In this document: positions 2,442 through 13,870 of the stretch, piece after piece
Numbering within the stretch: the first letter of the stretch is position 1
How the letters are laid out: each line of letters begins with the position of its first letter
NCBI GenBank assembly: GCA_902775595.1
Contig: CACYNF010000020.1
Span: 3,274-54,395, forward strand
Length of the DNA: 51,122 nucleotides
Direction of reading: 5' to 3'
From: an uncultured bacterium
Lineage (GTDB): Bacteria > Verrucomicrobiota > Kiritimatiellia > RFP12 > UBA1067
Translations under genes and position numbers: made by a program
Notes under the pieces: model-generated
Told to the model about the DNA's origin: nothing
The model's database searches: none
What the model saw: the letters and a program-made list of their open reading frames with translations, nothing else

Positions 2442-3668
2442 TCATAGTTTGGACTCGATCAGGTCGCAGACGCGCTCGGTGGCGTGTCCGTCCTCCACGC
2501 AGCCCTTGCCCTTCAGGAACGCCTCGACCCCTTCCCGGTACTTCGCCTCGTCGAACGTCCGAATGTTCTCCGCCAGCTCCGCCTCCGTCTTCGCGACGGG
2601 GAAAGGCGTCTCGGACATCGGGTAGTAGAAGCCCCTTCCGCGTTCGTATTCGTTGATGTCCGGCGCATATACAAACACAGGGCGGCGCGACAGCATGAAG
2701 TCGAACATGCAGCTTGAATAGTCCGAGATAAGCGCGTCAGCTGCGACGAGCAGGTCCTGTATGTCCGGATAGAATGTTGCATCTGCAACTCCATCCTCGA
2801 TTCGCCCGCCGTCGTGCGAGTTCGCAAGGTTTGGATGTGCGCGGACCATGAACCTCCACGTGCCCCCGAAGCGCCCCGAGAAGAGTCCGGCAAGCTCCAC
2901 GAGGCTGCCGTCGATCATTCCCCAGCGGCGGGACGGCCGGTGCGTCGGCGCGTACAGCACGATCCTGTCCGCGTCTGAAAGCCCGAAGCGGGCTCGCACA
3001 GCGTGCCGCGCGGCGGCGCCGTCGGAGAAGAACACGTCGTTGCGGGGATGCCCGAACAGCTTTATGTCGCCGAACCCGAAGAACCGGCTGCGGTAGACGA
3101 GCTCCGACTCCCATGTCGCGTTGGATATGAGGAAGTCCGTCATCTCGGCATCGCGCATCAGGACCTTGAGCCACAGCTGGACGCTCCCGTCCGTCGGACG
3201 GTCCTGTCCGATGCGCTTGATCCCGAGCGAGCCGTGGAAGGTCTGTATGTAGCATTGGCCCCTGCGTTTCCCCAGGCCCCACAGCACGAACGCGTCGAAG
3301 CTCTGGTTCGAGCACCAGAACTGCGCTGTGGACATTTCAAGTATGGCTCGGAATGGAGCGTACTTCACGACGCGGATTCCGGCGGGCATTCCTGCGGCCG
3401 CGGCCTGCGGGTCTTCCGCGAGCCACACGAGCTCCACGGGCGACTTCCTGCGCAGCAGCTCGAGGGCGATGTACTTCTGGTGGTCGCCGAATCCCTTTCC
3501 GTGGAAGTTGTTGAAGACGATCTTGCCCCTGCGGACGGGGCGCAGGCGGCACAGGAGCGAGACGAGGAATGCCAGTCCCGAATAATACCACAGGTAGGGA
3601 ACGACCTTCCTCCGGAACGCCCCTGGCGCGAACGCCTTGCGAATCTTGCTGCCGAGCCCGAGCTTCAT
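2442..3668 (-). CDS. CDP-glycerol glycerophosphotransferase family protein (TagB/TagF-like)
   Basis: This 408-aa protein belongs to the teichoic-acid polymerase/primase family, which moves glycerol-phosphate or ribitol-phosphate from a CDP donor to a lipid-linked glycan on the inner membrane face. Family features are visible: an N-terminal hydrophobic segment (YLWYYSGLAFLVSLLC), GKIVFNNFHGKGFGDHQKY, QTFHGSLGIKRIG, YAPTHRPS, and the diagnostic LISDYSSCMFDFMLSRRPV near the C-terminus. The ATG at 3668 is preferred: it overlaps the upstream stop as ATGA and has GGGGAGGA upstream; a longer in-frame start at 3686 would add MRGGSA. It sits inside an overlapping run of glycan genes with a CDP-alditol-type cytidylyltransferase at 16702-17409. 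The actual polyol is not determined. Confidence 0.9.
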   Translation of the reverse strand: MKLGLGSKIRKAFAPGAFRRKVVPYLWYYSGLAFLVSLLCRLRPVRRGKIVFNNFHGKGFGDHQKYIALELLRRKSPVELVWLAEDPQAAAAGMPAGIRVVKYAPFRAILEMSTAQFWCSNQSFDAFVLWGLGKRRGQCYIQTFHGSLGIKRIGQDRPTDGSVQLWLKVLMRDAEMTDFLISNATWESELVYRSRFFGFGDIKLFGHPRNDVFFSDGAAARHAVRARFGLSDADRIVLYAPTHRPSRRWGMIDGSLVELAGLFSGRFGGTWRFMVRAHPNLANSHDGGRIEDGVADATFYPDIQDLLVAADALISDYSSCMFDFMLSRRPVFVYAPDINEYERGRGFYYPMSETPFPVAKTEAELAENIRTFDEAKYREGVEAFLKGKGCVEDGHATERVCDLIESKL

Positions 3669-4819
3669 GGCCGATCCTCCCCGCATCCAAGCACTGCGCC
3701 GGAAATGAACTCGTGTGCGCGGGCGCGCAGGGCCTCCATACGTCGGCGCACGTCATGGAAGTCGATGCACGGCGCGGACTGCGGGATCCTCCCGTCCCGC
3801 GGAACAAGGCGTCCCTCGAGGCCGAGAGCCTCGCAGATGTTCTCGAACCTCAGGTCGCCGCCGCCTCTTGAAAACGCGAAGAACGGCTTCTCGAAAATGA
3901 CAGAGAAGCAGATGCCGTGGAAGGAGTTGCACACGACCGCGTCCGCGTTCATGAAAAGGCCGAGCCATTCCTCTATGCCGGCATCATCGACGACCTTGTG
4001 TCCGAAGACCAGCCTGTCTATTCCGTAGTTCCCGACCTCGATCAGCTTTTTCCCGAGACTCTCGGCGTAGCGCCGCGCCTCGCGCACCATGTCCGCGTTG
4101 AACTTCATGCAGGTGTAGAGAAGGACGTACCCCCTCTCCTTCGGGGGGACGGCGATCTCCGCGTAGTCCTGCGCCGTCAGAAGCAGCGTCGGATCGACGA
4201 GCCACGGAACTTCGCGCCCTGTCAGCGCGGCGAGGTACTCCGCGCCCGCGCGCTCTCTGCAGCTGACGGCGGCGAAGGACTCCAGGAAGGAGCAGACCGT
4301 CTTCCTCTCGGACTCGTCGAACGGAGCCGCCGCGAGCGAGGGCGCGTAGGCGACCTTCCGCGCGGCGTCCGCGGCGGGGAAGGCGAGGAAGAACCCCCTG
4401 TCCAAGGGGAATTTCGCACGGCGCTTCCAGATCACGTCGGACTCGCACACGAATACGCTGAATCCGTCCTCCGAAAGCGCGCCTCCGACAAGGTCGCGTT
4501 CGCGGTACCGGCGTGGCGTCGCCGACATGCGGGACGCGATGAAGTCGCGGAACTTGCGGTACTTGCGCAAGTTGGCGAACGTCGAAAAGCCCCAGCGCAC
4601 GATGTAACGAACCATCAGGAGCGGCTGTCGCCACAGGAACCTCGCGTTCAGCACCGGCCATTTCAGGGAATACCCCTCCAACTGACGCGGCACATAGTCG
4701 ATCACGACAGACTCCACGCCCATCCGCGCAAGATGGCGCTGGAGCGCATAGCCATGCAGCACAGCACCGTAGTTCAGGTGCTTCGAGCATGTCGTGAAGG
4801 ATATGAGGGCGATCTTCAT
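3665..4819 (-). CDS. Polysaccharide pyruvyl transferase family protein (first copy)
   Basis: A 384-aa member of the polysaccharide pyruvyl transferase family (CsaB/WcaK type, PF04230), which adds pyruvate ketals from phosphoenolpyruvate to sugars in the cytoplasm. The N-terminus MKIALISFTTCSKHLNYGAV has the usual beta-strand followed by the NYGA loop, and the second half holds FMNADAVVCNSFHGICFSVI, the conserved D-x-x-V-x-S-x-F-H-G motif typical of the family. It overlaps both neighbours by 4 bp (ATGA), so it is translationally coupled to Stealth upstream and the TagF-like gene downstream. Pyruvylation would add negative charge. The acceptor sugar is not known. Confidence 0.9.
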   Translation of the reverse strand: MKIALISFTTCSKHLNYGAVLHGYALQRHLARMGVESVVIDYVPRQLEGYSLKWPVLNARFLWRQPLLMVRYIVRWGFSTFANLRKYRKFRDFIASRMSATPRRYRERDLVGGALSEDGFSVFVCESDVIWKRRAKFPLDRGFFLAFPAADAARKVAYAPSLAAAPFDESERKTVCSFLESFAAVSCRERAGAEYLAALTGREVPWLVDPTLLLTAQDYAEIAVPPKERGYVLLYTCMKFNADMVREARRYAESLGKKLIEVGNYGIDRLVFGHKVVDDAGIEEWLGLFMNADAVVCNSFHGICFSVIFEKPFFAFSRGGGDLRFENICEALGLEGRLVPRDGRIPQSAPCIDFHDVRRRMEALRARAHEFISGAVLGCGEDRP

Positions 4820-9464: not shown

Positions 9465-9839
9465 TCAAGGCAATGCGAAGCGACGGAAGAGCACCACCGC
9501 CCACGACGCGCAGACGAGCGCGATCGCAATGAAAACAGCCGCGCTGCCGTAGTCCTTCGCCCTTTTCGCCCGTTCATCCCAATCCTTCGTGACCATATCC
9601 ACGGTTTCCTCGACTGCGGAATTAAGCAGTTCCACCATCGGCAGCGTTAAATAGACTACGAGAAGCACTCCCGTCTCGGTCCATGTCCTGGGTATCGTCA
9701 ATGCCAGGACAAGATTTAGAATGCCCACCAGGCATTCATGCCGGAAGGCCGCCTCGCGGCGAAAGCATTCCGAAAGCCCGTCAAGCGTTGCCGACATCGC
9801 CTTTCTTGCGTGGCTGAGCCCCTTGTCCTTGTTTCCCAT
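9465..9839 (-). CDS. dgkA: Diacylglycerol kinase (DgkA-type)
   Basis: A small integral-membrane kinase of 124 aa that phosphorylates diacylglycerol to phosphatidic acid with ATP, or undecaprenol in some lineages. The family signatures are clear: FRREAAFRHECLVG, the catalytic PMVELLNSAVEETVD, and AKDYGSAAVFIAIA; three hydrophobic segments follow the N-terminal amphipathic helix. The gene starts at ATG 9839, whose A is also the last base of the TGA of the upstream fusion gene. Enzymes like that fusion release diacylglycerol from phosphatidylethanolamine, so recycling by DgkA is a coherent pairing. About 75 bp separate it from the next gene's possible leader ORF. Confidence 0.95.
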   Translation of the reverse strand: MGNKDKGLSHARKAMSATLDGLSECFRREAAFRHECLVGILNLVLALTIPRTWTETGVLLVVYLTLPMVELLNSAVEETVDMVTKDWDERAKRAKDYGSAAVFIAIALVCASWAVVLFRRFALP

Positions 9840-12541
9840 CACCGAGACTCCTTTCCTGCCGAGGGCGACGCCTCCATAGGCCGGGCGGACAGAAAATTGC
9901 CGCCGTCGACACCGTCCGGGCAGCCCTTTACGCCAGCGAGTTCAAGCATGCCCTCCATCAGATGGCTTTGGCGCAGCGGGGAGTCCTTTGCCGCCTCGAC
10001 GCGCGCGGCGGTTTCAGGGAACGCCGCGCGGTATTCTGGCGAAAGCCAGATCAGCAGCGGTATTTCGTAGACGTCGCGCGACTTCACGTCGCGCCATACA
10101 TGGGAGTCTGGCGATTCGCCGTGGTCGGACACGTAAAACACAAATGACGGTTCATGTAGCTCCGCCACCTGACGAATGATAGAGGAGACGATAAAATCAT
10201 TGTAGGCCACAGATGTATCATACCAGTCTATTTTGCGTCTCGCCTTTGGTTCAAGATGCGCCGCCGTATCAGGCCATTGGCATTTAAAGTATGCAGGGAC
10301 ACGCTTTTCAGCCGGGTGGTGGCAACCGTACAAATGGATGAAAAGCGCAAATGGATCTGTTTTGCTTTCAAGGCATTTCTTGATCTCTGGCAGGGCAACT
10401 TCGTCCGGCAAAGTCCCAGGGACATTGTCGCCCTGGAGAAATTTCGCTTCACCGCAAGAGCGGAAGATGAATGTCCCAACAATATCCTTGGCTTGCCAAT
10501 GCCCTTGGCATGATACAAGCGATGTTTGGTAGCCGGCTTTTTTCAGCAGAGCAGGGAAAACATCCCGCACATCACGCCCACGCCCGAGTTCGCCGTCGGT
10601 CAGCAGCGAACAGAGCGCCTCCGGGGTCGTTGAATGATCTGTCGTCAGGTCGGTGAAAACCACGAGCCCCCCTTCATTTCGCAGAGCATCCAAGGCGGGG
10701 GTCGTCTTCCTCGAATAACCGTAAAGGCTCATGTGGCTACGAGTCAGCGATTCACCTATGACAAAGATGCAGAGCGGAGCTTTCTCCGGGTGCTTCAGAT
10801 CATACGGCGGCGCGTCAGAGCTGGCACGGGCCAAAGCTTGGTAGGATTTCCAGTTTACCACGGTATCGGTAGGCAGATGCAACAACAGAAGCGATCCGCT
10901 GATACGGTTCCAGGTGTGCGGGATGTTAAACAGATTGCGAACCATCATGCATGAGACGAACGCAAAGAAAAGGGCCAGAAGAACAGATATCGCGGAAAAC
11001 CTGGATGTGCAACTGCGTTTACGCACGAAGAAGAGAAATGTCGCCGCCACAGCAGCCAAGAGCAGAACGGCAAGGGCCACGTTCCACAAAGACAGCATGT
11101 CTCCACAGAATTCCGACAGTTCCTCTTTTGATGTCGAAAAGAGAATCAGCACCCAGTTCCCGCTAAGTACCATGTGAAAATTCAAGGCAGTCCAGCATTG
11201 CAGCCCCTCGATCAGTACCCAGAAGGAAAAGAAAAACGGAGCGACAAATCTTGCAAAACTTCCCAACAGGAGAGCCACGGCGACAGACATGCTAGAATAG
11301 AATATGCAAAGTTTGACGGCCAGCCAATACTTTGGCCACAAGACATACAAACGGATCCCCTGGTCGAGGGTGCAAAGAACGAGCGTGAACGCAATCCACC
11401 AGCGTATGCCCCATAGTCGCCATGCTACGCCACGAATGGCATCGATCATGACTTTCCTAGCGCTTGTGCCATGCACCGAGCCTCTACCGCCGAACAAAAC
11501 GGACGACAGACACGGCCAGAACCGGCGGATCAGAATTGCGGCGGCCGTCGGCAGCACCACGGCGGCGGCGGCGGCGGCCATCATCGCAGGGATGGACTTG
11601 TTACCATGCACACGCATGAAGCCGTCAAGTGCAAACGTGACGAAGAAGTGCATGACATAAATCGGGAATGACAGCGACATCATCCATGTCGGCCATTTGC
11701 CGGCCGGCAACGCCAGCCACATGCCGGAAACAAGAAGCGGAATGGCAAAGCAGAGAAGTGAAAGCGGGTCGCCCTTCCGGCTGCTTATGCAGTATGTGCG
11801 AAAAACAACGAGTCCGGCACCTGCGCAGAACAGGAATACGCCAAGCGCACGATCCCGCAGTCTTGTCGCGACGGGGATTCCCGTCCGCCTCAACATTACA
11901 CCAAGGCAAAAGTATGCGGCGCCGAACAGCGATATGCCATAGTAGAAGAAATGGTTTACAGAACTGCTGCGCAACCCGTTACGGTGAGGACTCACGACAT
12001 AATATGCCACAAAAAGGCCTATGACAGATAGCCAGCCAGGGCGTCGGCGCGTGGCAGCGGCTACCAGCGGCGAGAAAAGGATGAGTATAAAAAGTGCGCG
12101 AACATACCACAGCGGGGTAAGAAACGGAGGTCCAAGAAAATCCAGGCCAAGAATATGCTTGAAGTTTGTTGCGGAATGTCCAAGAGCAAAGAAGAAACCG
12201 TTTTCAGAGGCGTTCAAGACGGCAAAACCTATCTTGGCGAATGCAAAAAACAACGCGCTCCACAAGAGGTAGGGGACAGCAAGCGTAAAAAAAAGTTTCC
12301 CCACCTCGCGCCGCCACCATCCCTTTTCATCGAAGTGGCGCGACAGGAAATAGCCGGATACGGTGAAGAAGAAAGGGACTGCCATGCAGCATATTCCGAA
12401 GCGGGTAAGGCGGACAAACCACCATGAACCACTTCCGAACTTTGAATTCCACGCAACATGCGAAAGCGCCACCAGGCATGCGCATATCAGGCTCATGACG
12501 GCGATCTTCGAACTGGTTTCCTGTTCCGTTGCAATCTTCAT
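9839..12541 (-). CDS. Acyltransferase-3 / phosphoethanolamine transferase fusion
   Basis: A 900-aa inner-membrane protein with two enzymes in one chain. Residues about 15-340 form an acyltransferase-3 domain: ICACLVALSHVAW with the catalytic His, VPFFFTVSGYFLSRHF and about ten hydrophobic segments, ending FPIYVMHFFVTFAL. About residues 370-550 are five further TM helices as in EptA/CptA. The C-terminal periplasmic sulfatase-fold domain starts IFVIGESLTRSHMSLYGYSR, where the Thr matches the phosphoenzyme nucleophile of phosphoethanolamine transferases, and has the metal motif FYVSDHGESPD. The expected reactions are O-acylation and transfer of phosphoethanolamine from phosphatidylethanolamine. 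Start: ATG 12541 after AAGGA; a GTG at 12562 is the alternative. It overlaps dgkA. Confidence 0.9.
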   Translation of the reverse strand: MKIATEQETSSKIAVMSLICACLVALSHVAWNSKFGSGSWWFVRLTRFGICCMAVPFFFTVSGYFLSRHFDEKGWWRREVGKLFFTLAVPYLLWSALFFAFAKIGFAVLNASENGFFFALGHSATNFKHILGLDFLGPPFLTPLWYVRALFILILFSPLVAAATRRRPGWLSVIGLFVAYYVVSPHRNGLRSSSVNHFFYYGISLFGAAYFCLGVMLRRTGIPVATRLRDRALGVFLFCAGAGLVVFRTYCISSRKGDPLSLLCFAIPLLVSGMWLALPAGKWPTWMMSLSFPIYVMHFFVTFALDGFMRVHGNKSIPAMMAAAAAAVVLPTAAAILIRRFWPCLSSVLFGGRGSVHGTSARKVMIDAIRGVAWRLWGIRWWIAFTLVLCTLDQGIRLYVLWPKYWLAVKLCIFYSSMSVAVALLLGSFARFVAPFFFSFWVLIEGLQCWTALNFHMVLSGNWVLILFSTSKEELSEFCGDMLSLWNVALAVLLLAAVAATFLFFVRKRSCTSRFSAISVLLALFFAFVSCMMVRNLFNIPHTWNRISGSLLLLHLPTDTVVNWKSYQALARASSDAPPYDLKHPEKAPLCIFVIGESLTRSHMSLYGYSRKTTPALDALRNEGGLVVFTDLTTDHSTTPEALCSLLTDGELGRGRDVRDVFPALLKKAGYQTSLVSCQGHWQAKDIVGTFIFRSCGEAKFLQGDNVPGTLPDEVALPEIKKCLESKTDPFALFIHLYGCHHPAEKRVPAYFKCQWPDTAAHLEPKARRKIDWYDTSVAYNDFIVSSIIRQVAELHEPSFVFYVSDHGESPDSHVWRDVKSRDVYEIPLLIWLSPEYRAAFPETAARVEAAKDSPLRQSHLMEGMLELAGVKGCPDGVDGGNFLSARPMEASPSAGKESR

Positions 12542-12574
12542 GTTGACTTTTCCTTTTATCACAACCAGATACGA

Positions 12575-13841: not shown

Positions 13842-13870
13842 AGTATAACACGCGATTCCCTAATTGTCAA
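13842..13870 (-). promoter_or_regulatory. Near-consensus sigma-70 promoter of the AAA-DUF4143 gene (leaderless)
   Basis: TTGACA (13870-13865), a 17-bp spacer and TATACT (13847-13842). The ATG at 13834 lies 7 bp past the -10 box, so the transcript should begin at or next to the start codon. Confidence 0.85.

Follow-up and report, generated by a model that had tools for sequence, protein, structure and literature searches.

Does a single protein both acylate and phospho-decorate an envelope molecule, with the lipid by-product recycled by the enzyme encoded next to it? This question was raised by a first-pass annotation of a 51,122-nucleotide stretch of DNA (the window, to which all unprefixed coordinates refer), which read one reverse-strand gene as an acyltransferase-3 (AT3) transmembrane domain, a five-helix block, and a sulfatase-fold domain that together modify a glycan or lipid A. 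The open frame at 9839-12562(-) has 907 codons starting from GTG, but ATG 12541, which is preceded by AAAGGA, is the likelier start and would place the gene at 9839..12541(-) with a product of 900 aa. In the 907-aa numbering used throughout, Pfam finds Acyl_transf_3 (PF01757) at residues 26-340 (E 5.8e-26, over the cut-off) and Sulfatase (PF00884) at residues 597-878 (E 6.9e-35), and both halves fold as expected. The motif GESLTRSHMSLYGY is present in the sulfatase-fold domain as reported, and dgkA (9465..9842(-)) does overlap the stop codon of the fusion, within GTGATG. The fusion of an AT3 domain to a phosphoethanolamine (PEtN) transferase is thus confirmed as real in the assembly.

The C-terminal half looks like a functional PEtN transferase of the CptA/EptC type. 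The best NCBIfam model for the fusion is CptA (PRK10649), which matches residues 385-879 with an E-value of 3.2e-49, below the curated cut-off. Because this model spans 385-879, the membrane helices preceding the sulfatase fold (about residues 385-575 from the profile and hydropathy, 10838..11410(-)) would belong to the PEtN transferase. The five-helix block was placed correctly, within the CptA profile, but AlphaFold models it with low confidence; its counterpart in a congener, G128, is matched weakly by PF08019. Among solved structures, the catalytic domain (597-878, 9929..10774(-)) is nearest by sequence to that of E. coli EptC (E 1.3e-24), followed by EptA and MCR. Comparison of folds again gives E. 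coli EptC as the best match (6a82, Z 38.1 with 319 residues aligned at 2.7 A) and EptA and MCR next, whereas sulfatases score Z 23-26 and LtaS ranks below MCR. An 11-sequence alignment with relatives shows that neither the Thr nucleophile nor any metal ligand is missing, Glu604, Thr646, His748, Asp813, and His814 all being invariant. Of the PF00884 proteins in the genome, the two besides the fusion resemble ordinary sulfatases by sequence, so the fusion is the only PEtN transferase detected in the assembly. Sequence, structure, and catalytic residues thus back the PEtN transferase identity, and phosphoethanolamine would be the group transferred. The sulfatase-fold module might instead move a different lipid-derived group, such as phosphoglycerol taken from phosphatidylglycerol in the manner of OpgB or LtaS, which would still leave diacylglycerol (DAG) as the by-product. 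Such enzymes belong to the same superfamily, and the surface-polysaccharide cluster around the fusion encodes both a glycerophosphotransferase-family protein (PF04464, window 2442-3686) and an IspD-family cytidylyltransferase. However, the CptA/EptC family is far ahead of the others in both profile and fold matches, with LtaS/LtaP lower, and we regard transfer of another group as highly improbable.

PEtN transferases take phosphoethanolamine from phosphatidylethanolamine (PE) and leave DAG, which DgkA converts to phosphatidate. The DgkA encoded beside the fusion matches PF01219 (E 2.3e-27, over the cut-off), aligns with E. coli DgkA over EAAFR, VELLNSA-E, and RAKD-GSAAV, and is the only PF01219 match detected in the assembly. 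The same gene order is found in G128 as separate genes, which supports the logic of DAG recycling. We also see dgkA adjoining PEtN transferase genes in several Proteobacteria loci, and its pairing with mcr-3, mcr-7, and mcr-8 has already been published (PMC10285318; PMC7559476). The annotation's proposal that DgkA recycles the by-product holds up on these grounds, and PEtN transfer with DAG recycling is the best reading, well supported by what is known of the families.

The G128 locus also indicates how the fusion came about. There, AT3, PEtN transferase, and dgkA are three abutting separate genes (L043:7695-10780), the first two 51% and 52% identical to the corresponding parts of the fusion, and dgkA again overlaps the stop of the PEtN transferase gene. 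The G128 junction reads ...TLFGGR-TGA-G-ATG-AAG, with the two genes in different frames, and almost all AT3 relatives from the order and the phylum end in FGGR followed directly by a stop. In the fusion, FGGR (residues 357-360, 11483..11494(-)) is read through into an 11-residue linker created by the fusion, GSVHGTSARKV (11450..11482(-)), and then into MIDAIRG..., with no stop and in frame with the transferase. The FGGR codons of G128, GGAGGAAGG, double as a Shine-Dalgarno sequence (pairing -14.2), whereas the corresponding codons of the fusion are GGCGGTAGA; the G128-type Shine-Dalgarno is absent, and there is no strong site upstream of Met372 (11447..11449(-)), which may be the former start of the PEtN transferase. 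We considered whether translation might still begin internally, at Met372, from a retained Shine-Dalgarno and found this unsupported, as the upstream pairing of -4.2 is equaled by 31% of internal ATGs. Because the junction differs from that of G128 in frame, stop, and ribosome-binding site alike, it fits a settled fusion and not a single sequencing error. We conclude that the fusion arose from adjacent AT3 and PEtN transferase genes.

The fusion is known from one genome, a single MAG that is 86% complete and in 203 contigs, and all the other genomes searched are without it, as would be expected if an assembly or strain-mixture artefact had joined what in the organism are two coupled genes like those of G128. 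Yet relative to G128 the stop was lost, the frame matched, and the Shine-Dalgarno codons lost together, and the G128 layout is not restorable by a one-base change. The reading frames on both sides of the junction are open and conserved, and the genus contains a second, different PEtN fusion. An artefact is thus very unlikely.

A feature of the AT3 relatives themselves is that the conserved C-terminal FGGR codons, where they contain GGAGG, also act as the ribosome-binding site for a following gene whose start comes directly after the stop (L007, L011, L013, L035, and L043). In a post hoc count over the AT3 set, GGAGG was present at the FGGR codons in 5/5 genes with a start just past the stop versus one of about ten without.

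The remaining question is whether the AT3 half acylates. When this half was modeled alone, AlphaFold gave a pLDDT of 86.8, and the model matches HGSNAT and GWT1 with Z scores of 10.4-13.1, the next unrelated fold scoring 5.4; these matches come from a second aligner, Foldseek alone having returned no significant match for the model. On this modeling, the AT3 half (11543..12487(-)) is a TmAT-fold domain, a predicted ten-helix unit. Characterized AT3 enzymes depend on the Arg and His of R/K-X10-H in helix 1 and on Arg residues in helix 3 (PMC7448272; PMC12423673); the helix-3 Arg is essential in OafA, OafB, and Oac (PMC7448272, PMC12423673). In the fusion, the TMH2 motif FxxxxG and the TMH9 motif SxxxY are both present, as FFFTVSG and SFPIY, with FFxxSG kept. 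TMH1 retains His35, but position 24 is Ser; the Arg at H-11 is absent across the whole AT3 subfamily, which has Lys or Arg at H-16 instead. In helix 3, where the alignment shows KR in 19/19 stand-alone relatives, the fusion reads KL, so that Lys89 is kept and the TMH3 Arg (RxxR/RxR) is replaced by Leu90. This R90L substitution is the sole change in the fusion among 22 AT3 columns that are invariant in 18 outgroups, and it falls at a site that binds acyl-CoA in relatives. In G128, the TMH3 Arg of the AT3 protein is intact. We found no support for relaxed evolution of the AT3 half, as a relative-rate count gave 15 unique changes in the fusion versus 13 in G128; divergence between these two at the three codon positions of AT3 is 0.43/0.30/0.62.

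That the AT3 domain is maintained while its helix-3 Arg is specifically lost counts against ordinary acylation, although it is not proof. With this CoA-binding Arg gone, acylation of the usual kind by the AT3 half is improbable, judging from the alignment. The claim that the enzyme both acylates and phospho-decorates is thus unsupported in the form given; the combination in one protein is possible but weakened by R90L. In a truly bifunctional enzyme, the AT3 module would move an acyl group across the membrane, the EptC module would add PEtN to the same glycan, and DgkA would clear the DAG. The retained AT3 fold, His35, FFxxSG, SxxxY, and Lys89, the lack of overall relaxation, and the unfused G128 neighbors, which show that both functions already traveled together, are all consistent with this. 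Moreover, TMH1 of the subfamily does not follow the canonical DxxR-X10-H, and the acyl-CoA site of the subfamily may accordingly differ and may tolerate R90L. However, the fusion lacks both the TMH3 Arg and, like its whole subfamily, the TMH1 Arg, and OafA R69A and R72A show activity of 0.1% or less (PMC7448272). On balance, we consider such bifunctionality rather unlikely.

The codons for Leu90-Phe91-Phe92, CTT TTT TTT (12287..12295(-)), contain a T8 tract at 12287-12294 on the coding strand, in a window of 60% GC. The tract lies over AT3 codons 90-92, where the Arg was lost, and is a possible slippage site.

The reading that we favor, with reasonable but not high confidence, is a translationally coupled trio of AT3, CptA/EptC-type PEtN transferase, and dgkA in which the first two genes are fused and which performs PEtN transfer with DAG recycling while acylation is impaired. 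In this trio, the C-terminal module would use Thr646 and a periplasm-facing Zn site to take phosphoethanolamine from PE and put it on an envelope glycan, which may be LPS core, O-antigen, or a lipid-linked repeat, and the DAG that is left would be converted to phosphatidate by DgkA. The AT3 module would be retained as a folded, conserved membrane unit with a presumed holding or substrate-presenting role. As this module is predicted to end in the cytoplasm, it could be joined to a five-helix transferase that starts there. A repurposed AT3 half, no longer acylating but offering PE or a lipid-linked glycan to its fused PEtN transferase from within the membrane, seems to us unlikely. If this were true, a TmAT-fold protein would have a role other than acylation, new for this fold, and PEtN transferases would have been tethered to glycan-handling modules by fusion more than once, to AT3 here and to GT2-GtrA in another congener.

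As to the acceptor, the cluster that contains the fusion encodes a WbaP-like initiating transferase, a Wzx flippase, a glycosyltransferase, a Stealth protein, a pyruvyl-transferase, and capsule-synthesis proteins, and the cluster around the G128 trio is comparable and includes NeuB- and DegT-family genes. PS decarboxylase (Psd) and LpxC are both encoded in the genome of the fusion, giving it the means to make PE and lipid A. Because the fusion is within a surface-polysaccharide cluster, lipid A is only one candidate acceptor; from gene content, the polysaccharide, the LPS core, or lipid A could serve. Directly upstream of the fusion and inside the polysaccharide cluster is a gene for an AAA_14/DUF4143 ATPase (window:12575-13870(-)). 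A promoter-like TTGACC-17-TATAAT site with 11/12 matches lies between dgkA and the pyruvyl-transferase gene (window:9422-9450(-)), and a similar site is found at the start of the AAA/DUF4143 gene (13842-13870(-)).

Compared with known systems, the fusion shares with CptA/EptC (E. coli EptC, PDB 6A82/5ZZU) the catalytic fold, the Glu/Thr/Asp-His metal site, and, judging from the profile match, probably the preceding membrane helices, but it carries an AT3 domain in front, is about 25% identical, and falls below the CptA curated cut-off. The order of a PEtN transferase followed by dgkA for the lipid by-product is that of the mcr-3/dgkA and eptA-dgkA pairs (PMC10285318, PMC7559476); unlike those pairs, in which no AT3 is mentioned, here dgkA overlaps the stop and the gene lies in a polysaccharide cluster. 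The AT3-SGNH acyltransferases OafA, OafB, and OatA likewise join an AT3 membrane domain to an extracytoplasmic catalytic domain, but the partner here is a PF00884 PEtN transferase with its own membrane helices and no SGNH domain, and the essential AT3 Arg residues are missing. The closest likeness is to the G128 trio, with the same genes, order, and kind of cluster and about 51% identity, but with three separate genes and an AT3 protein that has its TMH3 Arg. The fusion is a natural single-chain link between surface-modifying enzymes that are usually encoded apart, with an unfused sister and a lipid recycler, and it makes the idea that neighboring modification enzymes act on the same glycan directly testable. 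A natural AT3 protein without an Arg thought to be essential also offers a way to ask if AT3 folds have functions besides acylation.

We found no other AT3-PEtN fusion in about 1,300 genomes (162 from the order, 388 from the phylum, 395 Bacteroidia, and 398 Pseudomonadota, which are samples and not all bacteria) or in 78 further loci. The whole fusion used as a single-protein query against genome and viral contigs found no relatives, and none of the plasmid records has both the AT3 and the PEtN transferase halves. Our literature search found no report of an AT3-PEtN transferase fusion, and the portion of an AT3 review that we draw on names only SGNH and alanine-racemase fusion partners. The fusion is thus a rare new domain combination of known families. 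The long PEtN ORFs inspected as candidate fusions were of three kinds: with GT2-GtrA in front, with an unnamed extension at the C-terminus, or with an N-terminal part that has no AT3 match. The first kind is the second, different PEtN fusion of the genus: a 981-aa GT2-GtrA-PEtN transferase ORF followed by dgkA in a gut congener, G134 (L046:2225-5167(-), which is the same as the L066 ORF, CAMEZU010000014.1). Adjacency of AT3 and PEtN transferase genes occurs in another phylum, in Ulvibacter (L099:4680-7137), where an eptA-like gene has its start overlapped by an AT3 gene that carries the canonical R-X10-H. The C-terminal extension, about 250 residues long, is carried by PEtN transferases of Bacteroidia (L159, L160, L161, and L162) and Pseudomonadota (L164 and L165); it gives no Pfam match at E 0.01 in the two that were scanned and looks common to most of the six loci.
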